IMG/VR virus record: IMGVR_UViG_3300032284_003256 | Span: 1 to 24,880 of that record | DNA from: a virus | Strand: one strand, 5' to 3' | Length of the DNA stretch: 24,880 nucleotides | Shown: in pieces, positions 2,284-21,100 of the stretch | How positions within the stretch are numbered: position 1 is the stretch's first letter | How the letters are laid out: each line of letters starts with the position of its first letter | The notes under the pieces: generated by a model | Seen by the model: only the letters and a program-made list of their open reading frames with translations | Databases searched by the model: none | Told to the model about the DNA's origin: nothing | Made by a program: the position numbers and the translations under genes

Positions 2284-2601
2284 TTATCTCCAATTGTCGC
2301 GCTTTGCTACCTTTAATAATACCAGATAGCCAATTAGATCGTCAATATCATTATCACCGGGAAACTCCTTACCCTTAAGGAATCTACTTAATTTATCATC
2401 AATCCTAACAAGAAGTTGCTCCGTATTATCCGATTTAGAAAAAACTCTCACAGGCTCAAGCGCGGAATTACCATAAGCCCTATTCTTTTGAATAAGAAAA
2501 TCAGCCATTTCACTACAAATTTTAGTAATTTCTAACTCAACCTTGTTCCTTGGTGAATCCTTGTCGTATGCACTATCAAGTGCCATTTTAAGATTTGCCA
2601 T
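2284..2601 (-). CDS. Nmad1/DUF1599-like protein (all-alpha NTP-PPase-like)
   Basis: About 105 residues from the ATG at 2601. The core QKNRAYGNSALEP at about residues 38-50 and LVRIDDKLSRFLKG at about 63-76, followed by a DDLIGYLVL helix with acidic residues, match the all-alpha family known as DUF1599 or nucleotide modification associated domain 1. This family occurs in phages and is thought to act on nucleotides or modified bases. The start choice rests on AGGAG at 2612-2616, ten bases before this ATG. A GTG at 2610 in the same frame would leave only one base of spacing. It overlaps the 3' end of the upstream IMPDH/GMPR gene by 14 bases. The family call is from pattern memory; activity is not established. 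Confidence 0.72.
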   Translation of the reverse strand: MANLKMALDSAYDKDSPRNKVELEITKICSEMADFLIQKNRAYGNSALEPVRVFSKSDNTEQLLVRIDDKLSRFLKGKEFPGDNDIDDLIGYLVLLKVAKRDNWR

Positions 2602-3634
2602 GCGGTACACTCTCCTTTAAACTATTCGGGGTAACTCTAATATATTCTGAAAAAAGTTGCAAGTCTTCAAGACTGTGAACGCCAGAATAAGAACAACCAC
2701 TCTGAATTCCGGCACGCCATTCATCTAAAGTTCTGCCAACGTCACCCTTATAATGAACTAAGGTTGATTCTCCTTCAACTACAGAAACTTTACCATGCCA
2801 ATTCTCTTGCGCCTGACGACTTGCCATACCCCTAAATTCCTTATACTTCTTTTCGCCTCTTTCAATCAATTTGCCCGGTGCCTCCTTATGACCAGCCAAG
2901 GCAGAGCCCAGCATGATTGCATCAGCACCAGCAGCAAAAGCCTTAATAGCATCTCCGCTATTCTTAATTCCACCATCAGCAATAATAGAAGTTGGAAGAT
3001 CAAGACGCTCAAGCATCTCATAAATTTCCATAATAGAAGCCAGCGTCGGCATACCATGACCAGTTACAATTCTGGTACTACACATTGAACCGCCACCAAT
3101 ACCCACACGGACAGAATCAGCACCGGCAATAGCAAGTTTCATAAAACCATCCCATGTGGAAACATTTCCCGCCATAATATGAATTTCAGGAAATGCTTTT
3201 CTAATTTCTCTAACAGTATTAACCGCTAGAGAATTATGACCATTTGCAGTATCAACCAGAATAACCTTTGCACCTGAATAAACTAAAGATTTTACTTGGT
3301 TTAAAACTGAATTATTTGTTGTAGAAACTCCTACTGCGGCACCAACAAGATGCTTTTTCACAGCAACTGCATTAACTTGCTGTGTCTGTTTTTCATTACT
3401 CATAAAACGATGAATAATTCCTAGACCACCGTAAGAAGAAACTTCCATAGCCATTTCTTGTTCGCATACTGTATCCATTGGAGAAGCAATAATTGGAAGA
3501 TATAAATCAATTTTTCTTTCAACCCCAATTGACATATTAAGATCTATATCTTTTCTACTCTCAACTGAGGAAGGTTTTGGAACCATCAATATATCATCAA
3601 AACACAGCGCTTCTTGATTATTATATAACTTCAT
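2588..3634 (-). CDS. IMP dehydrogenase / GMP reductase family enzyme
   Basis: A 348-residue (beta/alpha)8 purine enzyme with no CBS domains; E. coli GMP reductase has 347 residues. The catalytic loop is at residues 178-189 ([12 protein letters not shown], nucleophile C185). Also present are VDTANG (127-132), the phosphate-binding ADGG (219-222) and [11 protein letters not shown] (241-251). GMP reductase makes IMP from GMP; IMP dehydrogenase makes XMP from IMP. Length and the YKGDV segment near 295-299 favour GMP reductase. However, the flap reads RGMASRQ at 268-274, lacking the Glu of GMP reductase (GMSSE) and any clear Arg-Tyr pair of IMP dehydrogenase. AAAGGA precedes the ATG. It lies next to a GDP-sugar cassette, so it may adjust the guanine-nucleotide pool. 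Family certain, reaction uncertain. Confidence 0.9.
2612..2616 (-). promoter_or_regulatory. Ribosome binding site deciding the Nmad1-like start
   Basis: AGGAG on the minus strand, ten bases upstream of the ATG at 2601 and one base upstream of an in-frame GTG at 2610. The spacing supports the ATG. The site lies inside the last codons of the IMPDH/GMPR-family gene. Confidence 0.6.
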
Positions 3635-3636
3635 TA

Positions 3637-4302
3637 TTACCAGTCCTTTATGGTTAAATTCGGATTACCGAAAGGCGTCGTAAAAGTTTCTTCTTGAGGA
3701 TAGCCACCCCACTTTTTAATAAAATATTTCTCGTTCGCTTGAAACTGTTCATTTGAAAGAGAAGGTTTTTCGGGATTTGAATTACTTGAAGATTTATGAT
3801 GAATAATTTTTGCTTCAGTATGGATTCTGATACTCTGACCAGCCATTCTTGCTCTATATCTCATATCATTGTCTTCATAATATGCGGGATAAAATTTTTC
3901 ATCAAAATACCCGCACTTAAGAATTAATTTATTTATATTAATTGCAAAACAACAAAAGACCGATCTAAATATATCTTCTGGTCTTTCCTCTTTAATCAAA
4001 CCACACTCTTCTCTATCTAAATGCTGGTCTGCTCCGATAATGACATGCTCATTTTTTAATATTTCTTCATACAATTTTTTAATTGTATCTGGTTTAAATT
4101 TTACATCATCATTAGAAATAATGGCATAGTTAAACCCATCCCTTTTAGCCCTAACCATACCCAAGTTCCAAGCCTTCGAAACTCCACGATTATATTGAGA
4201 ATTATCAATAATATAAGGTCTTATATCATAATCAACAGAAGTCATCATATCAGTAAATAAATCAAATCTGTTTAATACAGGAACAATTAAGGGAATAGTC
4301 AT
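3637..4302 (-). CDS. GT-A glycosyltransferase, family 2-like (221 aa)
   Basis: Cytoplasmic sugar transferase with one GT-A domain. The N-terminal strand IPLIVPVLNRFD (3-14) starts the Rossmann-like nucleotide-binding half. SNDDVKF at 63-69 carries the metal-binding acidic pair. YFDEKFYPAYYEDNDMRYR at about 132-150 is the ED-containing acceptor-side motif typical of rhamnosyltransferase-like GT2 enzymes. No membrane helix or signal peptide. It is the last transferase of the cassette, followed after two bases by the IMPDH/GMPR-family gene. About 40 bases separate it from the preceding gene, the longest gap in the cassette, and a TATAAT is found there. Donor and acceptor cannot be told. Confidence 0.85.
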   Translation of the reverse strand: MTIPLIVPVLNRFDLFTDMMTSVDYDIRPYIIDNSQYNRGVSKAWNLGMVRAKRDGFNYAIISNDDVKFKPDTIKKLYEEILKNEHVIIGADQHLDREECGLIKEERPEDIFRSVFCCFAININKLILKCGYFDEKFYPAYYEDNDMRYRARMAGQSIRIHTEAKIIHHKSSSNSNPEKPSLSNEQFQANEKYFIKKWGGYPQEETFTTPFGNPNLTIKDW

Positions 4303-4330: not shown

Positions 4331-4359
4331 ATTATATAAATTTTAAAAATTCTCTGCAA
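4331..4359 (-). promoter_or_regulatory. Possible sigma70-type promoter
   Basis: On the minus strand TTGCAG (4354-4359) and a perfect TATAAT (4331-4336) are 17 bases apart, just before the gene starting at 4302 and in the longest gap of the cassette. The -35 matches the consensus only in its first three bases, and in DNA this AT-rich TATAAT arises often by chance. Weak call. Confidence 0.25.
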
Positions 4360-5002
4360 TTATATCTGGTATATGTTCGTAACTGTTTTCCTTACATATT
4401 CTTTCATAAATTCTTCCGTCACTTTGTTCGGTTAAATCATACCAATAATTATATTTTTCCCATATATCTCTATGGGCAACGAGTTGCAGAGCGTCGATAT
4501 TACAAAGAACCGGCGGCAAGCCCGGAAAAGAATAAATATTATTCAGAGGTCTGCTATCAACTATCTCGCCATCCAAATTTTGTACCATCACCTGATTATT
4601 TAAATATAACGCATTAAGTTTATGATGAATAATTGTAAAAATTATTATCTGGCTGCCTGTTTCTTCAATTTTTTTATTAATTGTACTTAAACAATCAGGA
4701 TAAAGAATATTATCAATATTAAATTGCAAGAAATATACACCGCTTGCAATCCTCATACCCATATCTCTTGAACTATGACCCCAATTGTTCATTCTTTCTG
4801 GAGTATTTAAAAAAATTGGTTTATTTTTAAATCTAGAAAAATCAAATTCTTGCTCATACGGAATTTCTTTTGGACCATCATGTACAATTATTAATTCAAA
4901 ATCGTCAAAAGTTTGATTAGCAAGATTCAGCAAACCTCTTTTCATCCCCGGCCTTGGAACATGGCGATCATAATCAACAGCAATAATGGAAAATTTAGGC
5001 AT
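4343..5002 (-). CDS. Glycosyltransferase, GT-A family 2-like (219 aa)
   Basis: The start is placed at the ATG at 5002, where AAGGAAG lies about nine bases upstream; this gives an eight-base overlap with the preceding gene. The protein opens with PKFSIIAVDYDRH and continues to NLANQTFDDFELIIVHDG at about 29-46, the classical first half of a GT2 nucleotide-sugar domain. FNIDNILYPD at about 94-103 stands where the DxD metal motif is expected but reads D-x-N. The last third is rich in aromatic and charged residues. No membrane segment. Donor unknown. The unusual metal motif makes the exact family less sure than for its neighbours. Confidence 0.78.
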   Translation of the reverse strand: MPKFSIIAVDYDRHVPRPGMKRGLLNLANQTFDDFELIIVHDGPKEIPYEQEFDFSRFKNKPIFLNTPERMNNWGHSSRDMGMRIASGVYFLQFNIDNILYPDCLSTINKKIEETGSQIIIFTIIHHKLNALYLNNQVMVQNLDGEIVDSRPLNNIYSFPGLPPVLCNIDALQLVAHRDIWEKYNYWYDLTEQSDGRIYERICKENSYEHIPDIIAENF

Positions 5003-5588
5003 AGCCAAATACTTCCTTTCTAATAAGCATATTGGTTTGATGACAAAATTCGATACCATTTTTTAAATTTCTACCATCCGGTCTATTTCGAATTATATAT
5101 ATACCATCAGTCTTACCAACATAAGCACCTTTATTATACATTTTACACCATAGGTGATAATCTTCAGACACCTTAAACCTTGAATCAAAGCCGCCAACCT
5201 CAAGAAACAAGTCTCTCCGCGCTGGGGCACCCACAATTATATATGGATTATTTCTAAGATTACCTTCAAGCCTTCTGCGGTTACTAAAATCTTCCCCCAC
5301 ATAAACTTGAAACGGATTCATAATGTCTCCAAAACCTTCATGAAAATTTTTAATAAAATCTGGATGCAACATATCATCTGCATCTAAGATACAAAAATAT
5401 TCTGTAGAAAGATTTTCTATTTCTTTATTTCGAAGATTAGCAAGGTCGGTTTGAGATTTAATGTTTACAACACGAATTTCATCTGGCATTACTGTCTGCT
5501 TTATAACTGAATCATATGCCTGTAAAGACATTGGTAGCCAATCACCTTCGCCATATGAAACTATTATTACACCAATTGTCTTATCCAC
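4995..5588 (-). CDS. Glycosyltransferase family 2 (197 aa, GTG start)
   Basis: Soluble GT-A sugar transferase. IGVIIVSYGEGDWLPMSL near the N-terminus is the GT2 donor-binding start, FCILDADDMLHPDF at about 63-76 is the DxD metal motif, and the segment around residues 127-146 (GGFD...EDYHLW) carries the ED pair of the acceptor side. The frame stays open upstream to 5684, but that part overlaps the GT25 gene. The GTG at 5588 has AGGAG at the right distance and leaves an eight-base gap after the GT25 stop, so I start there. An ATG two bases upstream is out of frame. Donor and acceptor unknown. Confidence 0.85.
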   Translation of the reverse strand: MDKTIGVIIVSYGEGDWLPMSLQAYDSVIKQTVMPDEIRVVNIKSQTDLANLRNKEIENLSTEYFCILDADDMLHPDFIKNFHEGFGDIMNPFQVYVGEDFSNRRRLEGNLRNNPYIIVGAPARRDLFLEVGGFDSRFKVSEDYHLWCKMYNKGAYVGKTDGIYIIRNRPDGRNLKNGIEFCHQTNMLIRKEVFGYA

Positions 5589-5593
5589 ATTTT

Positions 5594-5598
5594 CTCCT
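5594..5598 (-). promoter_or_regulatory. Ribosome binding site for the GTG-start GT2 gene
   Basis: AGGAG on the minus strand, five bases upstream of GTG at 5588 and overlapping the stop of the GT25 gene. It selects a non-ATG start in place of the out-of-frame ATG beside it. Confidence 0.6.
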
Positions 5599-6220
5599 AA
5601 TAATTTCTCAAATGCACATGATCTGCATAAGTATTTTCTACATCTGACCAACTGGGACGCTGCCAAGAAAGCGGTGGATAGCACACAAAACTCTTAAACC
5701 TATATAGATTATTTGCGTAAGTAACATCATTTGGTTCGTTTGAATTTAACAAATTCAATACATCAAAATAAATTTCTTTTTTAAATGAAATAGAATGAGT
5801 AGCCAAAGTTCTATTTGCTAAAGCAATTCTTTCGGTAATGGGTGAAGGAGAACCAAGGTTATGATTACCGCCTAAATAAAAAATTTGCCAATCTTCAGGA
5901 AGATCATTAATTGCTTCAGAAAATAAATTTGAAAAATTTTCAATAAACTGAACATCATCTTCAACTAATAAAAAATTATTATAATCATTTTCTATAGCAT
6001 CAGCAAAAATTCTTTGATGAGTTAAAAGTGATCCAATATCTCCCGACTTCATGTTTCCGGGGTACCCATCTCTTGGAATCAAAGTCCCGTCTGTTGCAGA
6101 AAATCTTTCAACATCTTTAATATCATTTTTTAAAAATTCTTCCAAGGATTCTTGCCAACGATCTTCTCTTCTATCTAAATTTATACAATAAATGTGATCA
6201 AAAAACTCATCTAACCTCAT
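5597..6220 (-). CDS. Glycosyltransferase family 25 (LPS-type)
   Basis: A 207-residue transferase of the family of lipooligosaccharide galactosyltransferases. CINLDRREDRWQ at about 12-23 is the family signature (I-N-L-x-R-R-x-D-R). RFSATDG follows at about 39-45, and LLVEDDVQF at 84-92 gives the acidic metal-binding motif. GSLLTHQRIFADAI at about 63-76 matches the conserved G-x-x-x-S-H-x-x-x-x-x-x region. No membrane helix. Length is slightly under the usual 230-260. It starts inside the last codons of the SDR gene (14-base overlap). GT25 enzymes commonly add galactose to surface glycans, but the donor here is not fixed by the sequence. Confidence 0.88.
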   Translation of the reverse strand: MRLDEFFDHIYCINLDRREDRWQESLEEFLKNDIKDVERFSATDGTLIPRDGYPGNMKSGDIGSLLTHQRIFADAIENDYNNFLLVEDDVQFIENFSNLFSEAINDLPEDWQIFYLGGNHNLGSPSPITERIALANRTLATHSISFKKEIYFDVLNLLNSNEPNDVTYANNLYRFKSFVCYPPLSWQRPSWSDVENTYADHVHLRNY

Positions 6221-7106
6221 CTCTCAACCAATCTTTAATATTTTTCTGTGGTTTCCAATTAAAAACTTCTTTTACTCTATCTATATTCGCTAAAGTGTCT
6301 TTTATTTCTCCCGGACGTTCTGCAATAAAAATATAATCTTTTGATACGATATCAACTAAATCTATTATTTTATCACTACGTCCACTTCCAACATTAAAAA
6401 TATTACCAAACCACTGATGATCAATCGAGGATGTAGCCGCCAATATATTTGCTTTAACGACATCCCCTACATAAATAAAATCTCTAGACTGAGTTCCATC
6501 CCCTACTACGGTCAATGGTTCATTATTCCTGTGCTGTCTCATAAAAATTCCAGTAACGAGAGCGTACTGCCCTCTATTTGGCGCTCTCTCACCAAATACA
6601 TTAAAGTATCTCAAAGAGATAGTTTCTAATCCATACAAATTAGAGTATAGTTTGCAAATTTTTTCTCCCGAAATTTTGGAAACAGAATAGGGATTAAGAC
6701 AATCATCTAACTGTGTTTCATCATTTGGTATTAAATTATTACCATATCCAGATGATGTGGAAGAATAAACTACTCGCTTAACACCCGCCTCTTTAGAACA
6801 TTGTAAAACTGTACATGTTCCAACAACATTTTTCTCCATAGCCTTAATTGGATTTAAGATTGTTGGCTGCAATCTCGATTCTGCTGCAAGATGAAATACA
6901 TAATCAACACCTTCATATAAATGACGAGTGTTTTCATAATCACAAATATCATATTTAAAAAAGGATGCTGAATTGTTGAAATAAAATTGATCATTACAAT
7001 CTGCTGATAGATTATCAATTACAATAACCTCATGACCAATTTCTATTAATTTATCTACGATGTGTGAACCAATAAATCCTGCGCCACCCGTAACTAAACT
7101 TTTCAC
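6207..7106 (-). CDS. NAD-dependent nucleotide-sugar epimerase/dehydratase (SDR)
   Basis: A 299-residue extended short-chain dehydrogenase. GGAGFIG at 7-13 is the NAD-binding glycine motif, and D31 closes the second strand as in NAD users. YSSTSSGYG at 114-122 holds the catalytic Ser/Thr, and Y140-x3-K144 is the catalytic pair. RYFNVFGER and GDGTQSRDFIYVGD are typical of UDP-glucose 4-epimerase or UDP-GlcNAc 4-epimerase relatives. It is likely to epimerise or dehydrate an NDP-sugar for the local transferases. Because the neighbours are heptose genes, an NDP-heptose modifying role is possible. The start is GTG at 7106 after AAGGAAAG, overlapping the previous stop by four bases. Confidence 0.9.
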   Translation of the reverse strand: MKSLVTGGAGFIGSHIVDKLIEIGHEVIVIDNLSADCNDQFYFNNSASFFKYDICDYENTRHLYEGVDYVFHLAAESRLQPTILNPIKAMEKNVVGTCTVLQCSKEAGVKRVVYSSTSSGYGNNLIPNDETQLDDCLNPYSVSKISGEKICKLYSNLYGLETISLRYFNVFGERAPNRGQYALVTGIFMRQHRNNEPLTVVGDGTQSRDFIYVGDVVKANILAATSSIDHQWFGNIFNVGSGRSDKIIDLVDIVSKDYIFIAERPGEIKDTLANIDRVKEVFNWKPQKNIKDWLRDEVR

Positions 7107-7804
7107 ATGCTTTCCTTAATTTTTAATTTTAATGCTGTTGTAGAATAATTATGATTACGTTCAATAAAAAATATAGACATATTAAGATCAGGTCCAGTAT
7201 AAGGTTTATTTTTATAATCAGAACCTAAAAATCTAACATCATAATCGCCATACTTTAATTGTTCATATAATCCCTGCTCTGTATTATATGGAATGACAGA
7301 ATCGACACTTCTCATCTCTTGAAGAATCTCTATTCTGTCTCTCAAAAACTGTACCGGACGAGGCTTACCGTTTTCAAGGGAGGGGTCTGCGTGAAGCAAT
7401 ACTGTAAGATGATTACAATATTCCTTTGCTTCCTTAAACATTTTTATATATCCCGGATGAATTAAATCAAACGCTCCCGCTACAACTCCGCGATCAAAAA
7501 TCTTTCCCCTTTTCCAATCATACACATTCATTGCTTTATCGTCAATAAAGTAATCCGCTTCCGGCTTTTTATTCATGATTAACTCATGATGTTTGACGCC
7601 CCATTCAGACAATTGTTTTTGTGTAAGTTCGGCATGATCTATTCCGCTAACGCAGCCACGCGCTGTCATAATTTTAATTGTGTGACCAAGATCATATAAA
7701 TTGTTTATTCTAAAAATCATTTCTGGATCTGGCATGGCAAATTCATATTGACTATTTTTTACTGATGTACAGATAGTTCCATCTAAGTCAAAACAATAAA
7801 TCAT
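7103..7804 (-). CDS. HAD phosphatase-nucleotidyltransferase fusion
   Basis: Two domains in 233 residues. Residues 1-100 are a HAD-type phosphatase: FDLDGT at 5-10 (nucleophile D6), KIMTARG at 44-50, K80, and IDDKA at 87-91. Residues about 101-233 are a cytidylyltransferase-like domain: GVVAGAFDLIHPGY (106-119), RDRIEIL (156-162) and a C-terminal YSTTALK resembling the ISTT motif of HldE and glycerol-3-phosphate cytidylyltransferase. The final histidine of the usual HxGH is tyrosine here. Between an isomerase/kinase pair and an epimerase, the fusion fits a step where a sugar bisphosphate loses one phosphate and the sugar-1-phosphate is coupled to a nucleotide. Substrate and nucleotide are inferred, not shown. 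ATGA overlap with the isomerase gene. Confidence 0.85.
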   Translation of the reverse strand: MIYCFDLDGTICTSVKNSQYEFAMPDPEMIFRINNLYDLGHTIKIMTARGCVSGIDHAELTQKQLSEWGVKHHELIMNKKPEADYFIDDKAMNVYDWKRGKIFDRGVVAGAFDLIHPGYIKMFKEAKEYCNHLTVLLHADPSLENGKPRPVQFLRDRIEILQEMRSVDSVIPYNTEQGLYEQLKYGDYDVRFLGSDYKNKPYTGPDLNMSIFFIERNHNYSTTALKLKIKESM

Positions 7805-8313
7805 TCACTACACTCCACTACACCATGAAGAAAAATTTGATGCACACATTCTGCAACACCATAACTATAGGTATCCACATGATAATTAAATACAGGATTT
7901 AAAGCAAATCTATTCATTCGATTACTTTTGTCGAAGGCGGTAAGTATGCCATAAAGAACATTATTACTCTCACACCATTTAACACAATTTACTAAATTCT
8001 CAGAATTACCAGAAGAACTAACAAGGACAACGAAGGTGTCGGGGTCTGCATAAAATTCAAGATATTTTGTGTATGCTAGATCTTGACCATAATCATTTAT
8101 AAAACATGTGAGCATAGATGGATCTGTAAAAGACATCGCACGCTTACCGGCACGTTTTGTTAAATCCTGAGCAATATGAGCAGCAACCGCATTACTTCCG
8201 CCATTACCAAGCAAAATTATTTTATTTTTTTCATTACATTGATTTTTAAACTTAACATATTCATTATTGTTAATTGAATTAATGGCGCTGATACATTCAT
8301 TAAAAAAATTCAT
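7801..8313 (-). CDS. gmhA: Phosphoheptose isomerase-like SIS protein
   Basis: A 170-residue sugar isomerase (SIS) domain protein, close to the usual length of GmhA (about 190). LLGNGGSNAVAAHIAQDL at about 34-51 and LVSSSGNSENLV at about 97-108 are the phosphosugar-binding loops, and the conserved C-terminal helix VHQIFLHGVVE (157-167) matches GmhA-type E-H-x-x-Q-x-x-x-H. GmhA converts sedoheptulose 7-phosphate to D-glycero-D-manno-heptose 7-phosphate, the first step to nucleotide-activated heptose. AGGAG at 8321-8325 lies inside the 3' end of the kinase gene, and the start overlaps the kinase stop as ATGA. A different ketose/aldose phosphate substrate is possible, but the kinase next to it supports heptose. 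Confidence 0.85.
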   Translation of the reverse strand: MNFFNECISAINSINNNEYVKFKNQCNEKNKIILLGNGGSNAVAAHIAQDLTKRAGKRAMSFTDPSMLTCFINDYGQDLAYTKYLEFYADPDTFVVLVSSSGNSENLVNCVKWCESNNVLYGILTAFDKSNRMNRFALNPVFNYHVDTYSYGVAECVHQIFLHGVVECSE

Positions 8314-9257
8314 ATTTTTTCTCCTGTTACTCCATTAGTAGATAAATTAATTTTAATATTTTTAAAATCAATATTTAAACTGTTCTTATTGGAAAACACT
8401 AAAAAGAATCCTCCGTTGCCAGCACCACATAATTTATGCCCTAACACAGTCTTGTTTTGACTTAATGCCTGATCCATTGAATAAAGGTATTCGTTTTCAA
8501 TAATCATTGAACTAGTTTTCTTTTTTTCTTCCCAACTTTGATTGAAAAGACTAATGAATTGATCATATTTTTTATTCTCTAATGCTTCATGCGCTTTATC
8601 TACAAGAGGCAGGAGGGACGAAGATTTATCAACATTTTAACTAATATCCCTTAGAACTTCTTTAGAATTTCTAGTTATTCCAGTAAAAATAAGATGTGTA
8701 TCATAAGAATTAAATATCTCAGAATTCAAAATTTCTGTCTTTACCCGACCATTTTTAATAAATTCTAAACGCTTAAATCCGCCAATACCACAACCATAAG
8801 GATCTTGATAACCACAATAAGGATTAAATTTAAGTTCTAACTCATACGCAAGTTTACAAATTTCAACATCACTCATATCTATTCCATTATAAATAGATAT
8901 CGCTTTTATTAAACTAATTAAATATGAAGAAGATGAAGCAAGGCCGCTGCCTTGAGAATATATGTCGCTTGTCAAACTAATCATGGATGGAGGAATGTAA
9001 AAATGTTGCAAAACAGTTTTAACCAATTCATTATGAATTAATTCAATATCGTGAACTTCTTCTCTTTTAGAATAATTAACAATATATTTATGATCTATAT
9101 TATTAAACCCTGCCCGGTCCTGACTTAAAGTTACATATGTTTTTAAATTTGGGGTAAAACTTATAACGGAACCGTATCCATATTTTTGTATAAAGTATGG
9201 GTTATCGGTAGATCCTCCAAAAAGGGATATTCTTAAAGGGCAGGAAGCGATATACAT
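8310..9257 (-). pseudogene. hddA: GHMP-family heptose kinase (HddA-like) with in-frame TAA
   Basis: Read through one TAA (8637-8639, codon 207), this frame gives a complete GHMP kinase of about 315 codons. CPLRISLFGGSTD at 6-18 is the sugar-binding start, SQGSGLASSSSYL at 105-117 the ATP loop, and HKLCGAGNGGFFLVF near the C-terminus the third GHMP motif. HddA phosphorylates heptose 7-phosphate at C1. The two parts (9257-8637 and about 8507-8310) are in the same frame with 43 open codons between them, so a single base change explains the break. The 206-residue product lacks motif 3 and should be inactive unless the stop is read through or the ATG at 8507 restarts translation; no good ribosome site precedes that ATG. 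A consensus error is also possible. Confidence 0.85.
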
Positions 9258-10031
9258 TTATCCCCAAAATTTTTCTCTGATCTGATTTTCTATGCGATCC
9301 CAATAAGACAAATAGTTTTGTGCAGTATTATAATTATTTTCTACAGCATCAAAAACTTTAAGATATGAGTCTTCTTCAAGATTTCCTAGAATATCAGTTA
9401 AATGACTTATGTCATTAAATTCTATTATACCGGACATATCAAAATACTGTCCAATGTTTGGACATCCCCAATAAATAGGAATAGTTTTTGTAATAAAACA
9501 ATCAATAATTTTTTCCGTAAAATAATTATTTTTTCTATCGTTTTCCACTACAATAGAAAACTTATAATCATTTAAAGTTTCATCTTTAGAAGGAATTCTG
9601 GGTGGCGTGACAAAACAATCTATCTTGTATCCATTAATATTATTTATATTTTCAAGAAATGGAATTAAACTTTGTCTAAAATTATGTCCACTTGTAAAAT
9701 TTTTTGTAGAAGTTAAAAAAGATATTTTATTATCTTTTTCATATTCACTTTTAACATTATCAATCCACGAAGTTCCATATAACAATTTTACAGAATTATC
9801 TAATTGTTCAAGTACCGACTCTCTCCATGTAATAACCAGATCAAACCTTCTCATTTCTTCAATAGGATAATTCGGGATTACCGCTTCAGATTCCATCAAG
9901 CATAAAACATTATATTTAAATGATGAATCGTGACGCAACGTATCATGGCTAATAGCGACACTATCAGGAAAATACATTTCTTTTTCACCGATGGCCCATC
10001 CTTCTGTGCCATAATTTTTTGCCAATATCAT
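9258..10031 (-). CDS. Fucosyltransferase family GT10 (alpha-1,3-type)
   Basis: A 257-residue soluble GT-B transferase. The hallmark is at about 156-190: YKFSIVVEND, then NYFTEKIIDCF, then PIYWGCPN. This is the GDP-fucose-binding motif of GT10 (alpha-1,3/1,4-fucosyltransferases such as those of Helicobacter). The ATG at 10031 follows the TAA of the GT11 gene by one base. The open frame continues upstream inside GT11, but that part is out of frame with a real gene. It is shorter than most bacterial GT10 proteins (300-450), lacking the C-terminal heptad repeats. It is likely to use GDP-L-fucose, or a related GDP-6-deoxysugar from the Gmd branch upstream. Acceptor unknown. Confidence 0.88.
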   Translation of the reverse strand: MILAKNYGTEGWAIGEKEMYFPDSVAISHDTLRHDSSFKYNVLCLMESEAVIPNYPIEEMRRFDLVITWRESVLEQLDNSVKLLYGTSWIDNVKSEYEKDNKISFLTSTKNFTSGHNFRQSLIPFLENINNINGYKIDCFVTPPRIPSKDETLNDYKFSIVVENDRKNNYFTEKIIDCFITKTIPIYWGCPNIGQYFDMSGIIEFNDISHLTDILGNLEEDSYLKVFDAVENNYNTAQNYLSYWDRIENQIREKFWG

Positions 10032-10032
10032 T

Positions 10033-10773
10033 TTATACCTGTATCCATGAATTAGGGATTTTATCCTCATTATTGTTAGTGGAAGAAGGACCGAACCATA
10101 TTTTAGGGGCCACAACAAGTTTATCAGGATTTTTATTTAACCAAGCCCCCCACCAACTAAAAGAACTATTAGCAATAATATTATGATTTGCTTTAGTCAT
10201 AAGATATAAGGCTTCGTCTGGGGAATTATTTCCGATATAAAAATCAGCCGTAATATTTTTTTTACACCATTCAATGTCGTCTGAAAAAATAACAATTTTA
10301 AGATTACTTGAAATTTTATCTAATGCTTGATGATAATATTCAATTGGTATTACGGGAAAATGTTCCTGTTGATTTAAATAATCTGTACGTCTAATATGCA
10401 TAGAAATATAATTTTCACACGGAAGGTCATATTTTTTTTTAAAAATTAAATCATCAATTAATTCTTTTTTTATATGATTAAAATATTTATCAGTTTGAAA
10501 ATATCCAATTAAATTTATTTTATCTTCACAATTATTAAACAATTCTTCATCAAAATTGTGTTTTTTTTCAACAAAATTTTTTTCATTTTTTACATATGTA
10601 AAAACATTTTTTAAATAGAAATATTTTTCTATTAAATTTTCTACTCCTGCATCTCCTGTAGACAACGAGTATTGAAAATCATTGTTACTCGCTATCCCCC
10701 TTGTAGACGCATATTGGAATAATTGATTACCCAATCGACCCATAGTTCCCAATTGATTAAATGATATTGTCAT
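10033..10773 (-). CDS. Fucosyltransferase family GT11 (alpha-1,2-type)
   Basis: A 246-residue transferase with all GT11 landmarks. GRLGNQLFQYA at 12-22 is motif IV-like. IGYFQTDKYF lies at about 89-98. MHIRRTDY at about 125-132 holds the HxRR donor-binding motif. IIANSSFSWWGAWLN at about 199-213 is the C-terminal signature. GT11 enzymes transfer L-fucose from GDP-fucose in alpha-1,2 linkage; some relatives in E. coli O antigens use GDP-colitose. The protein is somewhat shorter than the usual 280-300. No membrane segment. ATGA overlap with the FkbM gene upstream and a one-base gap before GT10 make these three a tight unit. Confidence 0.93.
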   Translation of the reverse strand: MTISFNQLGTMGRLGNQLFQYASTRGIASNNDFQYSLSTGDAGVENLIEKYFYLKNVFTYVKNEKNFVEKKHNFDEELFNNCEDKINLIGYFQTDKYFNHIKKELIDDLIFKKKYDLPCENYISMHIRRTDYLNQQEHFPVIPIEYYHQALDKISSNLKIVIFSDDIEWCKKNITADFYIGNNSPDEALYLMTKANHNIIANSSFSWWGAWLNKNPDKLVVAPKIWFGPSSTNNNEDKIPNSWIQV

Positions 10774-11405
10774 GTCAATTTTTTATTAATCCAAACTAAA
10801 TCTAAAGAAGATTGTGCAAACCTTTTACTTAAAACTAAATCAAAATTTTTATTCTTCATAAAGTCAACAATGTCATCAGCAACTTTTTGCCCATTCCAAA
10901 TCTCAATTTCTTCCACTTCAAGATGAAACATTTTTACCATATCTATCTTTTCTTCAAATCCTTCTAAAACTTCATATGTACATCCTTCAACATCAACTTT
11001 ACACAAATCAATTTCACAATCAATATTATATTTTTCAATCATATTCTTTATAGTAGAAACTTCAACCTCTACTGTTCTAGTATCCCTACTAGTGTAATAA
11101 TCATCATTCCTATTTCTTAATGAAGAAATACCCATTTCTCCAAGATTTGTATATAAAGCATTAAAATTTGACCTACCGCAAAAATTTGAAATTGCTACAT
11201 TAATATTATTAAAATGTGGATATTTATTATTAATATTTTTAAAACATTCTGGATGACATTCAAAAATGTAAACTTTATCAGTATTTAAACTTTTTGATAA
11301 AAAGGCTGCATCATCTCCATCACGCGATCCGATATCAAAAATTACGCTTGCTTTTTCAGAAAAATATTTTCTATATAATTCTGGTAAATATTTAATGCTA
11401 GTCAT
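10770..11405 (-). CDS. FkbM-family SAM-dependent methyltransferase
   Basis: A 211-residue class I methyltransferase. FDIGSRDGDDAAF at about 23-35 is the SAM-binding loop, IFECHPE at about 48-54 gives the acidic end of strand 2, and CKVDVEGCTYEVLEGF at about 139-154 is the FkbM signature. FkbM enzymes O-methylate sugars or polyketides. Among glycosyltransferases, the natural reading is O-methylation of a sugar hydroxyl, for instance as a chain cap. It overlaps the GT9-like gene by eight bases at its start and shares ATGA with GT11 at its end. No signal peptide or membrane segment. Confidence 0.88.
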   Translation of the reverse strand: MTSIKYLPELYRKYFSEKASVIFDIGSRDGDDAAFLSKSLNTDKVYIFECHPECFKNINNKYPHFNNINVAISNFCGRSNFNALYTNLGEMGISSLRNRNDDYYTSRDTRTVEVEVSTIKNMIEKYNIDCEIDLCKVDVEGCTYEVLEGFEEKIDMVKMFHLEVEEIEIWNGQKVADDIVDFMKNKNFDLVLSKRFAQSSLDLVWINKKLT

Positions 11406-12291
11406 TTTTTTCCAAATCCTTATTTATAAAACTTAATATTGAATCAATAACTTTTGATTCATCTCCATTATGATATCCAGTTCCATCAAGTAACCATCCT
11501 ATTTTTGCATTAAAATCCATTTCATAATTAAAACAATCTGTTGGATTGCAGCCGAAGGAGAATAGGAATCGATTATGGTCATTCATAACCTTATCAGTTA
11601 ATGCAAAAAGGTACGGTCCAGAATTTCTTCCAATTATATATTTACAATGTTCTTGTGCCAACCAAGATATTTCATTTAAATCTGAACCAATTGTTGAAAT
11701 TAAATTATTGGTATATAAAATATTTGAAGCATCTAAAGAACTTTGATGAGTTAAAATAATTCGATAATCCGGGAAATTATTTACTAATGCAGCAACAATA
11801 CCTTCCGTACTTGACAGGTAAGATTGACCAGAATTTACTGGACCATTAGAAAAAAGAATTGTTTTGTCAAAAAAATATTCAAAATCTTTTGGAATATCAA
11901 AAAAATCATAATTTATTTTTGGTAAATAATCACTTGCTTTACTGACTCTTATTTCTTTATTTAAGAATTCTGATATAACTTGATATGTTGATGCGAATAT
12001 TTCATAATACATTGCCCAAAAAATTCCACGTCTTTGATAATTTCCAATCCAAGTATTAACAAAAAGGGTGTCATTTTGATATACAAATTTCTGATTTTCA
12101 GGAATATTTGATAATTCTTTAATGTCTATATAAGCAACATTTATATCTCTTAATATTTTTTCACCATTATGATGAGCATAAGAAAAATTTATTTCAGGAT
12201 AAAAATTTACAATCTCTTTAATAAATTCCCTTGTCGCCACAATATCACCATTATGATAATGATTAAAAAATATAATATTTTTACTTGACAC
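11398..12291 (-). CDS. GT-B glycosyltransferase, GT9 (heptosyltransferase)-like
   Basis: A 297-residue protein without a sharp family signature. IIFFNHYHNGDIVATREFIKEI at the N-terminus resembles the G-D-x-x-x-x-x-x-x-x-x-L start of GT9 heptosyltransferases. In the C-terminal half LNEISWLAQEHCKYIIGRNSGPYLFAL (split around residues 204-230) looks like the GT9 segment with I-G-x-N/D-S-G-P-x-H/L. A heptosyltransferase-like role would fit the heptose genes downstream, but this is inference. The start is GTG directly after the TAA of the previous gene, with AAAGGGG upstream. It may instead be another GT-B type, or a non-transferring relative. Confidence 0.6.
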   Translation of the reverse strand: MSSKNIIFFNHYHNGDIVATREFIKEIVNFYPEINFSYAHHNGEKILRDINVAYIDIKELSNIPENQKFVYQNDTLFVNTWIGNYQRRGIFWAMYYEIFASTYQVISEFLNKEIRVSKASDYLPKINYDFFDIPKDFEYFFDKTILFSNGPVNSGQSYLSSTEGIVAALVNNFPDYRIILTHQSSLDASNILYTNNLISTIGSDLNEISWLAQEHCKYIIGRNSGPYLFALTDKVMNDHNRFLFSFGCNPTDCFNYEMDFNAKIGWLLDGTGYHNGDESKVIDSILSFINKDLEKND

Positions 12292-12630
12292 TTAAACCCC
12301 TTTATAAATTTTTACAGACTCTTCATTCAAGGTCTTGCCTTTAAGAATAGCATTATCAATCATAAGATTAATCGCTTCAACAAATTTTGGTCTTTTTTGC
12401 TTAAAGCAAATATCTATTTTCCTTTTTAGTTCTGCAACTTCTGAATCTGTTTGTGCAGAATGAATCATATCTTCTAGCATCCATGTTCTTATATGAAGAA
12501 TAACCAATTTTTCAATTACTTCACCAAGGTTGTCCGTTTCAATATACTGAGTGTCGGGCAACTCATTATTTTTTAAAACTTCATCAACATGATTCATAAT
12601 AATTTTGTCTATATTATTACCGATTTTCAC
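12292..12630 (-). CDS. DUF4254-like helical protein, 112 aa
   Basis: A small all-helical protein. The core IEKLVILHIRTWMLEDMI (about 39-56) and VAELKRKIDICFKQKRPKFVEAIN (split around 64-88) match the pattern of DUF4254: a helix with W-x-x-E-D, followed by K-R-x-I-D and Q-x-R. Genes of this family are often found inside surface-glycan clusters in bacteria, without a known reaction. It starts at a GTG at 12630, with AGGTGA upstream, inside the last codons of the ColD-like gene (14-base overlap), and its stop touches the GTG of the next gene. It could help the aminotransferase-like or transferase neighbour; I see no catalytic motif. Confidence 0.65.
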   Translation of the reverse strand: MKIGNNIDKIIMNHVDEVLKNNELPDTQYIETDNLGEVIEKLVILHIRTWMLEDMIHSAQTDSEVAELKRKIDICFKQKRPKFVEAINLMIDNAILKGKTLNEESVKIYKGV

Positions 12631-13792
12631 TTATATCACCTAATATTCTTTTTAAGATTTCAATATTTTTTTTACCAACAAACTGACTGTTACCAACATA
12701 AAGGCCCATGCTCTCAAGTATTTGAACATTTGAACCTTGATTCTTAACATATTCTAAAGAGTAATTTCTTAAAAAGGGATGCGAAAGCAAGTTTCCGCTT
12801 ACTACCGGCCTATACTCAATATCATTTTCAATAAATTTTTCTTTTAAACGATTGTATATATCCTTGTTTTTTGAAATAAGAGGAAAACAAAAATTACTAT
12901 TACCCTCAATATTTTTAGGTACATAAAATTTGTCCTCATGATTACTCATTAATTTTAAGAATTCTTCATAATTTTTTTTTCTTTTTTCAATATTATCATT
13001 TAATCTTTTTAGTTGAGATATACCTAACACGGCACAAATTTCATGATTCCTAAAATTAAAACCATCTGTGACAAAGAGAAAAGACTTATCGATATTGGAA
13101 TATTTTTTAGCATAATCTTCAAAATTTATTGATTCCCTAGCCATACCATGACTTCTTTTCATTTTCATTAAATCATAAAGTTCTGAATCATTGGTACAGA
13201 CCATTCCGCCTTCAACAGTTGTCATATGATGACCAAAATAAAAACTAAAAGTCGCACCCAAACTGTCTGACCCTACCCTAGACCCATCCTTAAATTTTGC
13301 TCCATGAGACTCGCAAACATCGTCTAATACAATTGCTTGTGGAAATATTTCTAAATATTTTTCGTTATCAGCAGGAAAACCTAAAAGATGTGTTACAAAT
13401 ATTATTTTTATATCATCATGAATTTCTGCAATTTTTTTTAAATCATCAACATCGAAAGAAAAATTCTCAAAATTTATATCACAAAAAATAGGAGTTAATC
13501 CTAATTGAATAATGGGACCAACATTAGTTACCCATGTACATGCGGGGACTAAAACCTTATCTCCGTTTTTTAGATTATATTTTTCTTTAATTGCTGAAAT
13601 TAAAAGTAAATTGGCAGTACTGCCAGAAGAAACAAAAAGGGAATGATCGCATCCCAACCATTCACTCCACTGTTTTTCAAATTTTCTTACTTGATCACCA
13701 TTTGTAAATTTTTTTGTTGTAAGTACAAATTTAGCAAGTTTTAGCCTATCCATATTGGTAATGCCGTTTTCCATTAATTTCCAATTAGACAT
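12617..13792 (-). CDS. ColD-like GDP-4-keto-6-deoxymannose 3-dehydratase (DegT family)
   Basis: A 391-residue fold-type I PLP protein of the DegT/DnrJ/EryC1 family; ColD has 388 residues. SSGSTANLL at 55-63 is the phosphate-binding region, PACTWVTNVGP follows at 83-93, and VLDDVCESHGA at 155-165 holds the cofactor-contacting aspartate. At the position of the Schiff-base lysine the sequence reads SFYFGHHMTTVEGG (183-196), so H188 replaces Lys. This exchange is the mark of the 3-dehydratases ColD and RfbH/E1, which use PMP and a histidine base to remove the C3 hydroxyl. RfbH also has an iron-sulfur cluster and is longer. With gmd and an fcl-like gene directly upstream, GDP-4-keto-3,6-dideoxymannose is the likely product. 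A plain aminotransferase is unlikely without the lysine. Confidence 0.82.
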   Translation of the reverse strand: MSNWKLMENGITNMDRLKLAKFVLTTKKFTNGDQVRKFEKQWSEWLGCDHSLFVSSGSTANLLLISAIKEKYNLKNGDKVLVPACTWVTNVGPIIQLGLTPIFCDINFENFSFDVDDLKKIAEIHDDIKIIFVTHLLGFPADNEKYLEIFPQAIVLDDVCESHGAKFKDGSRVGSDSLGATFSFYFGHHMTTVEGGMVCTNDSELYDLMKMKRSHGMARESINFEDYAKKYSNIDKSFLFVTDGFNFRNHEICAVLGISQLKRLNDNIEKRKKNYEEFLKLMSNHEDKFYVPKNIEGNSNFCFPLISKNKDIYNRLKEKFIENDIEYRPVVSGNLLSHPFLRNYSLEYVKNQGSNVQILESMGLYVGNSQFVGKKNIEILKRILGDISENR

Positions 13793-14726
13793 TTCTTACG
13801 CCTCCGGTTTCTAAATACCAAGCAATAGTTCTATCTAATCCTTCATCCAAGGTCACGGAGGGTTCCCAGCCCAAATTGTTTATTTTTGTATTGTCCAATT
13901 TCCTTCTGGGTGTTCCATTTGGTTTAGAAGTATCCCAAACAATCGTTCCGTTGTAACCAACTTTTTTCGCTATAATTTCAGATATTTCTTTAATCGAATA
14001 TTCTTCAGAAGATCCAACATTAATATGATCTGAATCGTTATAATTATTCATTAAAAAAACACATGCATCTGCAAGATCATCAACATAAAGGAATTCTCTG
14101 GTTGGAGTACCATCGCCAAATAACACAACTTCTCCTACCCCGTCTTTTTTTGCAGAAATGAATCTATTAATAATTGCAGGTATGACATGGCATTGATCAA
14201 TATTAAAATTATCATTAATTCCATAAAGATTTGCTGGCATTAAAGAAATAACATTAAAACCATATTGCTCTTTATACATTTTAGACATTTTAAGACCAGC
14301 AATTTTTGCAATAGCATAACCTTCATTAGTTGGTTCAAGTGTGTCTGTTAATAAAAATTCTTCTTTTATTGGTTGTGGTGTAATTTTAGGATAAATGCAA
14401 GCAGAGCCTAGAAAAAGAAACTTTTTACAATTATTTTTATACGCAGAATTAATTACGTTATTTTGAATTTGTAAATTCTCATAAATAAAATCAGCCGGAT
14501 ATTTTTTATTATATGCAATTCCACCCACTTTAGCGGCTGCCATAAAGACGTACTCAGGTTTTTCTTCATTAAAAAAATTTTCTACATCTTGTTGCCTACG
14601 AAGATCTAATTTTTCTTTAGATTTAAAAATTAAATTTTTATAACCTAAATCATTTAATTTTCTTACAATAGAAGATCCCACTAATCCTCTATGTCCAGCA
14701 ACAAATATTTTACTATCAAGTTCCAT
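13785..14726 (-). CDS. fcl: GDP-L-fucose synthase-like epimerase/reductase
   Basis: A 313-residue SDR; E. coli Fcl has 321. GHRGLVGS at 11-18 is the NADPH loop, and [11 protein letters not shown] follows at about 60-70. LGSACIYPK at 107-115 holds S108 and C110. GYAIAKIAG at 136-144 holds Y137 and K141. NLYGINDNF (167-174) and HVIPA (H180) complete the Fcl active site, each one residue off the E. coli numbering. It converts GDP-4-keto-6-deoxymannose to GDP-L-fucose by 3,5-epimerisation and C4 reduction. With the ColD-like enzyme downstream it could instead act like ColC, 5-epimerising and reducing the 3-deoxy product to GDP-colitose; ColC and Fcl are homologous, so sequence alone does not settle it. 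It overlaps the gmd stop by 11 bases. Confidence 0.9.
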
Positions 14727-15723
14727 TTAAACACATATCCTTTACCAATTGTTCAAAACTATGCTTTGGAGTCCATCCCAACACACTCTTTGCTTTAGTT
14801 GCATCGCCCAGCAAAGAATCAACCTCTGCTGGTCTAAAATATTTTGGATCAACTTCAATTACAAGGTTGCCAGTATTTTTATCAATTCCTACTTCATTAA
14901 GCCCATGACCTCTCCATTCAATTGACATATTAAAATATGGAGCGCAAGCCTCAATAAACTCTTTAATTGAATATTGCTCGCCTGTTGCAATAACATAATC
15001 ATCTGGTCGATCTTGTTGAAGCATAAGCCACATAGCCTCAACAAAATCCTTGGCATGACCCCAATCTCTTTTGGCATTCAAATTACCCAAATAAAGGGTA
15101 TCTTGATTACCACAAGAAATATTATGAAGACCCTTTACAATTTTTCTTGTAACAAATGTCTCTCCGCGACGGGGAGATTCGTGATTAAATAATATACCAG
15201 AACTTGCATGAATGCCATAAGATTCTCTATAATTCTTTACAATCCAATACCCATATAACTTTGCTACCCCATAAGGTGATCTGGGGTAAAAGGGAGTATT
15301 TTCCTTTTGAGGAACCTCTTGAACTAATCCATAAAGTTCTGAGGTGGATGCTTGATAAACCCTAGTTTTATTTTCCAATTTTAGAAGCCTTATTGCTTCT
15401 AAAATTCTAAGAGTTCCCAAGGCGTCAACTTGAGCCGTATACTCTGGGATTTCAAAAGATACATGAACATGACTTTGGGCACCCAAATTATATATTTCTT
15501 CAGGCTGTATGTCAGCAATTAACCTAGTCAAATTAGTTCCATCTGTCAGATCACCGTAATGCAAAATAAAATTATTATCATTATATATATGATCAATTCT
15601 TTCACTATTAATAGAAGAAGATCTACGCTTGATGCCATGAACTTCATAACCTTTTTCTAATAAAAGTTCTGCCAAATACGATCCATCTTGACCTGTAATA
15701 CCAGTAATTAATGCTTTTTTCAT
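14716..15723 (-). CDS. gmd: GDP-mannose 4,6-dehydratase
   Basis: A 335-residue extended SDR, a little shorter than the usual 345-375. [12 protein letters not shown] at 8-19 is the NADP loop, GIKRRSSS at 30-37 the adenosine-phosphate pocket, and [13 protein letters not shown] at 79-91 a Gmd signature. STSELYG at 126-132 holds the catalytic Ser/Thr and E129, and [10 protein letters not shown] at 149-158 holds Y151 and K155. The stretch from about 178 ([12 protein letters not shown]) is diagnostic. It removes water from GDP-mannose to give GDP-4-keto-6-deoxymannose, the branch point for fucose, colitose, rhamnose and perosamine. No mannose-activating genes (manB/manC) are in the window, so GDP-mannose must come from the host or elsewhere. 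Confidence 0.96.
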
Positions 15724-15726
15724 AGA

Positions 15727-16485
15727 TTATCTATTCCCGCAAACTAAATTTTCCCACACATAATTTTTTTCAAAAACAGTCTGAGACTTTTGAAAATCAA
15801 AAGAACTTTGATGATGTGCCCCATAATGACCAATATGCTGTGACCTAGAATATCTAGGAATTACACAAAACAAATTATTATCAGGAACAACTCGCTGTGA
15901 CACAAAGGCGTCGTAGTGTAGATCTTCTCGATAAATTCCTTCACTTAAATATTTTTGCCAACGATCTTTCCAAGTTCCCCAAATCCAGCCTGCCCAAAAC
16001 GGCTGAATGTCAAAAACATTTTTTTCTTCAGGACTTGCAACAACAAGATTACCATTAGCATCCCAAATATTTGCATAATTCATGGGAGTATGATAATTTG
16101 CACACACAGCAAAAATAGAATCATCGTCCTTAAATCTATTTGACAGTTCAACAAAATAATCTGAAATATCCTCTGAAGGAATTAAATCATTCTCTGCCAA
16201 AACAACAAAATCATATTCCATTTTTTCAAACATCAACCTCATAGCAGTATCATGATTTTTACCATCAACGCCCAAAACTTCTTCGTTTAAAATAACGCCA
16301 ACTTCAGTTTTTGTTTTTTCTTTAAAAGAATCAATCAATTTAATAATTTCGTCATTTTCTGGATGAGGTTCTAATTTAAAATAAAAGTCAAACTCATCGA
16401 TATTTCTAGCATCTGCCCAATAATCTAAAGTTTGTTTAGTAAAATCAATTCTTCCACAAACTACAAAAACGACGGCCCTTTTCAT
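15727..16485 (-). CDS. GT-A glycosyltransferase (252 aa)
   Basis: It opens with VVFVVCGRIDFTKQTLDYW, the donor-binding start of a GT-A fold. FVVLAENDLIPSED at about 92-105 carries an E-N-D acidic motif in the place of DxD, and FWAGWIWGTWKDRWQKY at about 153-169 resembles the W-x-W-A-T-W-R-D-R-W acceptor motif of a group of bacterial GT2-like transferases. HYDAF and HIGHYGAHH near the C-terminus are rich in histidine. No membrane helix. It lies upstream of gmd with three bases between the genes and downstream of the small HTH gene. Donor unknown; its place before gmd gives no direct clue. Confidence 0.8.
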   Translation of the reverse strand: MKRAVVFVVCGRIDFTKQTLDYWADARNIDEFDFYFKLEPHPENDEIIKLIDSFKEKTKTEVGVILNEEVLGVDGKNHDTAMRLMFEKMEYDFVVLAENDLIPSEDISDYFVELSNRFKDDDSIFAVCANYHTPMNYANIWDANGNLVVASPEEKNVFDIQPFWAGWIWGTWKDRWQKYLSEGIYREDLHYDAFVSQRVVPDNNLFCVIPRYSRSQHIGHYGAHHQSSFDFQKSQTVFEKNYVWENLVCGNR

Positions 16486-16504
16486 GACATATTCTCTTTT
16501 AGCA

Positions 16505-16660
16505 CTAATTGACTCTTTTCTTTAAAAGGCCCATCTTCTCTAGGGCACGCTGTATAGTCATATGACTACATTTTGCTTCTCTAGCCATCTCAACAATATT
16601 CTTTTTCTCTACAACATATCGTTTATACAACCATTGTTTAGATTCATATAATTTGCTCAT
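16505..16660 (-). CDS. Small helix-turn-helix protein, 51 aa
   Basis: ATG at 16660, TAG at 16505. The 51 residues form one predicted HTH: LYKRYVVEKKNIVEMAREAK (11-30) followed by a recognition-helix-like CSHMTIQRALEKMG (31-44). This is the kind of DNA-binding domain often found attached to phage HNH homing endonucleases, but no nuclease domain is next to it. The ATG comes one base after the TAA of the GT92-like gene. It may be a free regulator of the cassette or a remnant of a mobile endonuclease. About 19 bases separate it from the next start. Confidence 0.7.
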   Translation of the reverse strand: MSKLYESKQWLYKRYVVEKKNIVEMAREAKCSHMTIQRALEKMGLLKKRVN

Positions 16661-16661
16661 T

Positions 16662-17513
16662 TTAATGAACAATCCTAGACAATAAATCTTTTTCCCCGCC
16701 GTATCTTTTTACAAGTTTTTCTTTAATTAAATCTGAATATTTAAATAAGTCTTTACATTCATGTGTACTTTTTCCATCTAAATTTAAATGATCTAGCATT
16801 GTTTCCCCATCATTAAATTCTTTTCCGGGTAGATCCAAATAACCTTTAGATCTTTTTTCAATAAATTCATTTCTAGATTTAGTCCAATAATGATGTAATT
16901 TTATTTTATCAAAACCGGGATCTTGATTATTAAAAGGGGAAAGACCCAATGGTGTAAATCTTTCATTTACTGTACTCATACCGTTTAGCATAACCGTATG
17001 AGGATTTCCGCCATAAGAAATAGTATGCTCCGGCATAAAAATAGTTTTAATGTGATGGGAGAGATCGCGTTCAGCCTTAGTGTAACTATTTATTACCAAA
17101 TCATTGGGCATATCAATATGCCCACTAGGACCAAACATCTCCCATTCAACACCTAATGCTCCGTACGGTTCATATTTTTTTAAGAAATCTACTAAATTTC
17201 CACCATCTTTAAGAAATAAAAATTCATCAATCGCATGGAAAAATGCCCACTTTGTCTTATTTTTTTGTTCGTCAATGCAATGATTCATTGTCCAAAATAA
17301 TATATTATCCTGACGAGTTAAATGTTCTGGAAAAGTCCTGACTTCAAGAATGCCTTCTTTAATATAAGAATCAAGTATTTCATAAAAACCATCAGTAGAA
17401 TTATCATTATAAAGAATGAAATGATCAACTCCCTGAATAAGATGAAATTCAATCCATTCAGGAATGTATTTAGTTTCATTCTTTACCCACATAATAGAAG
17501 TTAAATTATACAT
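16662..17513 (-). CDS. Glycosyltransferase family 92-like (DUF23 type)
   Basis: A 283-residue soluble transferase. SIMWVKNETKYIPEWIEFHL at 6-25 followed by GVDHFILYNDNSTDG (28-42) is the GT92/Glyco_tranf_2_4 signature (V-K-N-E-x-x-x-I-x-E-W-x-x-x-H-x-x-x-G-x-x-x-x-x-x-Y-D/N-N-x-S-x-D). WAFFHAIDEFLFL at about 88-100 gives the conserved I-D-E acidic motif. KLHHYWTKSRNEFIEK around residues 205-220 is the common C-terminal block with the YxxKS-like element. Relatives add galactose or other hexoses. It is the first transferase after the recombination genes, three bases beyond the ruvC-like stop, so the cassette shares the transcription unit with replication genes. Confidence 0.85.
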   Translation of the reverse strand: MYNLTSIMWVKNETKYIPEWIEFHLIQGVDHFILYNDNSTDGFYEILDSYIKEGILEVRTFPEHLTRQDNILFWTMNHCIDEQKNKTKWAFFHAIDEFLFLKDGGNLVDFLKKYEPYGALGVEWEMFGPSGHIDMPNDLVINSYTKAERDLSHHIKTIFMPEHTISYGGNPHTVMLNGMSTVNERFTPLGLSPFNNQDPGFDKIKLHHYWTKSRNEFIEKRSKGYLDLPGKEFNDGETMLDHLNLDGKSTHECKDLFKYSDLIKEKLVKRYGGEKDLLSRIVH

Positions 17514-19781: not shown

Positions 19782-19944
19782 CAGGACATATCCATTTCAT
19801 TTCGCGTGTAGAAGGATTAAAATATGAAGTTTCTGCATCTAAAGGACACTTTTGACATCCATACAAGCCCATCATTTCTTCCCAGCCAGTCCAATCATGC
19901 TTCTCACGATCAGGCTTACCCAAAAATTCATTAAGACTTGGCAT
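19750..19944 (-). CDS. Small zinc-ribbon-like protein, 64 aa
   Basis: Starts at ATG 19944 with AAGGAG eight bases upstream; an in-frame GTG nine bases earlier would touch the ribosome site. The opening MPSLNEFLGKPDREKHDW is followed by CQKCPLDAE (C-x2-C) and WICPDGHVS (C-x3-H), a likely single zinc site. The first 14 bases overlap the end of recA. No further motif. It is the first of a run of small genes following recA and may bind nucleic acid or a partner in the recombination set. Function unknown. Confidence 0.75.
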   Translation of the reverse strand: MPSLNEFLGKPDREKHDWTGWEEMMGLYGCQKCPLDAETSYFNPSTREMKWICPDGHVSVVELD

Positions 19945-21092: not shown

Positions 21093-21100
21093 TTGATTCC

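Follow-up and report, generated by a model that had tools for sequence, protein, structure and literature searches.

The window, by which we mean the whole stretch of viral DNA analysed here (a virus record of 24,880 bases with a GC content of 34.5%), carries on its minus strand an uninterrupted frame of 348 codons. Its product matches the Pfam IMPDH/GMPR domain (PF00478) over residues 9-345 with 326.6 bits, in agreement with a preliminary description that had read the frame as an enzyme of the IMP dehydrogenase (IMPDH)/GMP reductase (GMPR) superfamily, and matches PHROG 9582, a family named 'dehydrogenase', over its full length with 326 bits. No CBS insert was found in the protein, again as described. 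An AAGGA motif lies 9 nt ahead of the ATG, and an upstream ORF (3637-4302) ends two bases before it. Because five viral relatives, all full-length, are 85-92% identical to the window protein, and because the C-x-T, flap EG and E-S/N-x-P-H tail motifs are each kept in 81/81 viral proteins, the frame is, judged from its sequence, a genuine gene and not a chance frame. The small ORF that overlaps its end, in which Pfam gave no match even at E 10, is probably co-expressed with it (Table 1).

Table 1. Features of the enzyme gene and its overlapping neighbour
Feature	Position	Strand	Remarks
IMPDH/GMPR-superfamily enzyme, CBS-less, predicted GMP reductase	2588..3634	-	348 aa; PF00478, phrog_9582, AF2
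Catalytic loop GGGSMCSTR, residues 180-188 (Cys185, Thr187)	3071..3097	-	C-x-T in 81/81 viral proteins
Shortened active-site flap, residues 269-288, without Arg-Tyr	2771..2830	-	14 residues, Ser272 to Glu287
Met270-Ala271, putative equivalent of Met401-Ala402 of T. brucei GMPR (guanine contacts)	2822..2827	-	motif position, inferred
Glu287, predicted catalytic Glu, aligned with Glu428 of T. brucei GMPR	2774..2776	-	alignment
ESVPH tail, residues 341-345	2600..2614	-	IMPDH-like; not in GMPR1/GMPR2
Small ORF, phrog_1485 (unknown function)	2284..2601	-	14-nt overlap with the end of the enzyme gene

Between the enzyme gene and the replication genes lies a sugar island (4343-17513) that encodes a GDP-mannose 4,6-dehydratase (506 bits), an epimerase, a GHMP kinase and a cytidylyltransferase-like protein; it also holds an SIS match that is weak and does not reach the cut-off, and several further ORFs labelled glycosyltransferase-like from reading their sequence. 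The replication and recombination block itself (18070-21449) holds a UvsX-like recombinase, a Holliday junction resolvase, a Cas4-like nuclease and a MazG-like protein.

In an alignment-based scan of viral contigs, 410 stretches matched and 315 encode a relative of the enzyme, the best 80 of which were kept. The 24 other viral loci that remained after dereplication have GC contents of 27-40% and thus also belong to AT-rich viruses. Among the 25 dereplicated loci, the enzyme gene directly follows an epimerase/dehydratase gene in eight, and in a further eight it directly follows the gene of a long terminase-like protein, a label read from the sequence (the one such protein tested had no Pfam match). 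Directly after the enzyme gene comes a phrog_1485-like ORF in 7/25 loci and a small acidic ORF in 10/25, and relatives of the small overlapping ORF occur near the enzyme gene in 17/25.

We aligned 92 proteins, in which the viral-type rows had been thinned by shared 4-mers from 82 (the window protein, L001-L005 and L020-L095) to 25; a partial sequence (L006) was dropped throughout, as were L017-L019, which come from the same contigs as L003-L005. Cys185, Thr187 and Glu287 are conserved in all 25 viral-type rows, and the MCSTR loop is intact, with Cys185 and Thr187 in place, as the preliminary description had it. The Glu287 column holds Glu in 90 of the 92 rows, the two exceptions being archaeal Gln, and contains the Glu of GMPR1, GMPR2, GuaB1 and IMPDH alike; in both GMPR and IMPDH the catalytic Glu is part of a Glu-Gly pair at the distal flap end, and in a direct match Glu287 falls on chain position 428 of the GMPR of Trypanosoma brucei. 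The Glu used by GMP reductase had been described as lacking. That view came from a search that ended at RGMASRQ, and with Glu287 (in VVEGES) standing 16 residues past Ala271, it has to be given up.

The absence of the IMPDH Arg-Tyr pair, by contrast, was described correctly: the flap of the window protein is without it, and among 81 viral proteins of 336-358 aa (L095 left out) a flap Tyr occurs in none and a flap Arg in 10, at no fixed position. The alignment that had been named in advance as a possible refutation thus places an equivalent Glu correctly and no equivalent of the Arg-Tyr pair. Counted as the interval from Ser272 to Glu287, the flap has 12-14 residues in the viral proteins, as against 22-32 in IMPDH (20 rows), 17 in GMPR1, 10 in GMPR2, 23 in GuaB1 and 17 in the haloarchaeal and Legionella rows. 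Position 271 is Gly in 20/20 IMPDH rows and 5/5 archaeal rows and Ala in 25/25 viral-type rows; the remaining groups of the alignment, including GMPR1, GMPR2 and GuaB1, have Ala or Ser there (GuaB3 stands outside this alignment). Furthermore, at 30 positions that discriminate 20 IMPDH rows (L132 excluded) from 18 GMPR1, GMPR2 and GuaB1 rows, at least half of the viral rows have a residue other than that of IMPDH at 21, and at nine the IMPDH residue is kept. Asp220, which presumably contacts the hydroxyl groups of the ribose, is conserved in 25/25 viral-type rows.

Trees were built from alignments whose flap columns had been removed beforehand (22 columns in the first tree, which leaves out GuaB3 and five distant phage rows, L205-L209). 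A second, more careful tree, also without L012 and L132 and with six haloarchaeal and Legionella rows added, places 24 viral rows in one clade (bootstrap/SH-aLRT 100/98) and the IMPDH and archaeal rows in another (96/90), outside which the viral rows lie; the GMPR1, GMPR2, GuaB1, haloarchaeal, Acidimicrobiales and Bacteroidota-type rows form one clade each. The viral clade stood beside IMPDH in the first, quick tree with weak support (80), and the careful tree fixes no neighbour: it joins the viral clade weakly to a Legionella adelaidensis protein (86/63, no star) and to a contig binned in a Chitinophagaceae MAG (86/86, no star). Placed by this sequence tree, the window protein is none of GMPR1, GMPR2, GuaB1 or IMPDH and belongs to a distinct viral clade. 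The earlier idea of a third subfamily is therefore borne out in part, in that a separate viral clade exists outside these four groups.

Several cellular relatives with unusual flaps came to light in the same comparisons. Proteins from Acidimicrobiales (L096-L112, L117) are CBS-less and have Ala at the Gly415 position, with a long flap (DDEYFEQRAPEG) that carries Glu-Tyr at the place of the IMPDH Arg-Tyr; across 20 genomes of one family, the sole other strong PF00478 match besides the CBS-less protein is GuaB3-sized, and either of the two could be the IMPDH. Three woesearchaeotal proteins (L120, L121, L123) are of CBS length and fall in the IMPDH clade, with a flap of the GMGSKEANTGGIRGYSKLPQG type that has no Arg-Tyr and with Gln for the catalytic Glu in two of the three. 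A cellular CBS-less clade from the phylum of an Ignavibacteria MAG (L114, L166-L170) has a 10-residue flap, GSASFGVKMK-x-EFIEG, and the one member tested scored below the curated GMPR cut-offs. Proteins of CBS length from the phylum of an Acidimicrobiales genome (L195-L197) combine a GMASLGAAAARLEIEG-type flap with Ala at the Gly415 position, are without Arg-Tyr and stand apart from GuaB1 in the tree.

Comparisons over the whole protein lean toward IMPDH, with every curated model below its cut-off. The IMPDH model TIGR01302 gave 275.7 bits (cut-off 481.5), a score handicapped by the model's 450 positions, more than the CBS-less window protein has; NF003470 gave 240.6 (397), the other GMPR models of NCBIfam 226.2 (TIGR01305, 492.15), 175.4 (TIGR01306, 465.65) and 182.9 (NF052358, 675), and the GuaB3 model TIGR01304 87.2 (342.1). 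The best solved match of the whole protein is an IMPDH by sequence (1vrd) and 5upy by profile, and when residues 259-348 are taken alone it is human GMPR2 (3e-9). An AlphaFold2 model built on 32 aligned sequences reached a mean pLDDT of 84.5 and a pTM of 0.86. In the Cys loop (181-194) and in the flap (271-277 and 280-288) the pLDDT drops below 50, as is usual where a chain is mobile, so that the shape of the flap is not readable from the model. The structures most similar to it are IMPDHs, whose Z scores run from 44.7 downward, and T. brucei GMPR ties with them at 43.6. In a library of viral structures the closest entry, at 37% identity, comes from an uncultured Caudovirales phage and is named 'GuaB IMP dehydrogenase/GMP reductase'. 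We set aside the IMPDH-like barrel as a means of deciding for IMPDH, because T. brucei GMPR is likewise closer to IMPDH, being nearer to it by BLAST than to mammalian GMPRs according to a passage in PMC4701174.

The same paper, in the part available, describes a T. brucei enzyme that acts on GMP but shows no activity with IMP, and its authors propose the changes Tyr411 to Ile398 and Gly415 to Ala402 as the cause of the lost IMPDH activity. The window counterparts of Ile398 and Ala402 are Phe267 and Ala271. In the GMP complex of that enzyme, the guanine is contacted by Met401, Ala402 and Glu428 (an excerpt of PMC7160140), which are matched in the window protein by Met270, Ala271 and Glu287, the Met-Ala pair by motif position. 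GMPRs in general have a truncated flap and no Arg-Tyr dyad, as stated in a section of Min et al. (2008, PMC2525682); when the flap is cut short and has no Arg-Tyr while Cys, Thr and Glu are present, the pattern is therefore that of a GMP reductase, and the claim that the window protein bears neither diagnostic flap does not stand. Nor does an altered reaction find support, given GMPR-like Cys, Thr and Glu residues, a short flap and, in Ala271, the very residue that the available part of PMC4701174 names for T. brucei GMPR.

These results suggest, with a probability of about 0.65, that the window protein is a viral GMP reductase-like enzyme with GMPR-type chemistry that belongs to a distinct viral clade. 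The suggestion comes from the combination of a short flap, Ala271, Glu287 and the lack of a fixed Arg; flap length and Ala would be no proof by themselves, because GuaB3, an IMPDH family, has both. We infer substrate, cofactor, direction and role as follows. The protein would fold as a CBS-less (beta/alpha)8 barrel and, like its relatives, probably form oligomers. Cys185 would attack C2 of GMP and the Thr187-Glu287 pair would serve protonation and the release of ammonia, giving the E-XMP* intermediate. NADPH would remain bound, because there is no long Arg-Tyr flap to displace it, and would deliver a hydride to yield IMP. The ESVPH tail may form half of a monovalent-cation site, by reasoning from a passage in PMC4701174. 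In an AT-rich phage, such an enzyme could turn host guanine nucleotides into IMP and adenine nucleotides. The sugar-gene neighbourhood agrees no less well with a flow in the opposite direction than with this shift from guanine to adenine: the epimerase/dehydratase genes directly upstream in 8/25 loci count against a GMP reductase, because the making of GDP-sugars would call for a larger supply of GTP. A further point against it is that a search for PurA (PF00709) in 23 viral records, all partial, found it in none (0/23).

The opposite direction is taken by an unlikely alternative, in which the protein works as an IMP dehydrogenase, relies on the Thr187-Glu287 relay alone for the hydrolysis of E-XMP* and supplies GTP, for instance to the adjacent GDP-sugar genes. 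The IMPDH-like barrel scores, the C-terminal E-S-x-P-H and the GDP-mannose dehydratase within the window agree with this, and the relay has a precedent: Min et al. (2008, PMC2525682), in the portion consulted, describe Thr321-Glu431 as a second working route of hydrolysis in IMPDH, perhaps ancestral, and propose hydrolysis by Thr-Glu only for a primordial enzyme. Moreover, GuaB3 is a short-flap IMPDH family, and the essential IMPDH of Synechococcus elongatus belongs to it (from an extract of PMC13273366). Set against these points are the absence of Arg-Tyr in 81/81 viral proteins, when an IMPDH deprived of Arg418 hydrolyses about 1000-fold more slowly (same portion of PMC2525682), the replacement of Gly by Ala271, and the fact that GuaB3 has Arg where the window protein has its Glu. 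We regard it as distinctly unlikely that the clade as a whole is a viral lineage of working Arg-Tyr-less IMPDHs that hydrolyse by Thr-Glu only, a present-day case of the 'atavistic' primordial IMPDH put forward by Min et al., or else an enzyme that carries out both reactions.

That the protein applies GMPR chemistry to another nucleotide (dGMP, or a purine nucleotide that carries a modification) as part of a DNA-modification or nucleotide-scavenging route of the phage seems improbable to us. The overlapping partner ORF, whose family phrog_1485 is of unknown function, and the MazG-like nucleotide pyrophosphohydrolase in the window would both suit such a route, against which stand the conservation of Asp220 in 25/25 rows and the lack of any recognised DNA-modification enzyme among the scanned part of the window ORFs. 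That the gene is a decaying, functionless fragment of a host GuaB, as the missing CBS domain and the variable sugar-gene island next to it might suggest, is hardly credible and already contradicted by conservation, since the frame is intact, the catalytic residues are kept across the 81 viral proteins of similar length and relatives are encoded in 315 candidate stretches.

If the proteins of this clade are GMP reductases, as we favour, the purine flow predicted for infected cells is the reverse of that implied by the current family names, IMP dehydrogenase or 'dehydrogenase'. The clade is a large branch, given its 315 candidate stretches within one viral collection, and because a GMPR-like flap is joined in it to a barrel that resembles IMPDH, it is well suited to tests of how a handful of residues set IMPDH apart from GMPR chemistry. 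Viral GMP reductases as such are already mentioned, in phage annotations and in print, where 'GMP reductase' is named in a pelagimyophage genome (passage in PMC7029224); our search of the literature on viral IMPDH and GMPR found no paper on the present clade.

Compared with named systems, the window protein shares barrel similarity, the Cys-Thr-Glu set and the C-terminal E-S-x-P-H with bacterial IMPDH (GuaB), from which it differs in having no CBS domains, no Arg-Tyr, a short flap and Ala for Gly. GuaB3 rows from Actinomycetota resemble it in Ala at the Gly415 position and in a very short flap, which ends in LPRG (Arg-Gly) where the window protein has VVEG (Glu-Gly). GMPR1 (E. coli GuaC, human GMPR2) and the GMPR2-type GuaC of Bacillota are likewise CBS-less, with Cys-Thr-Glu, a truncated flap and no Arg-Tyr, but they form separate starred clades and have no E-S-x-P-H tail, and GMPR1 further differs by Ser at position 271 and an Arg three residues ahead of the Glu. 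PHROG 9582 covers the protein fully, yet is a sequence cluster with no assigned activity. The GMP reductase of T. brucei (6JIG, 6LK4) has the same Met-Ala-Glu guanine contacts, an IMPDH-like barrel and a similar tail (E-S-x-x-H), but also CBS domains and a flap of 25 residues, from Ala402 to Glu428 by residue numbers.

CBS-less relatives from Legionella (L. adelaidensis WP_058461449.1, 39% identity) and haloarchaea (43%) are named guanosine monophosphate reductase by PGAP. PDB 3R2G, deposited as an IMPDH, is presumably a Legionella protein as well, an origin supported by a fragment 85% identical to the L. adelaidensis protein; a search for a paper describing this entry found none. Its flap starts with RGMASREAQE, and the same start in the Legionella protein is a likeness to the window protein, with which it also shares the lack of CBS domains, Ala at the Gly415 position, the Glu of EG, the absence of Arg-Tyr and the E-S-x-P-H tail, its flap being of 17 residues as against 14.
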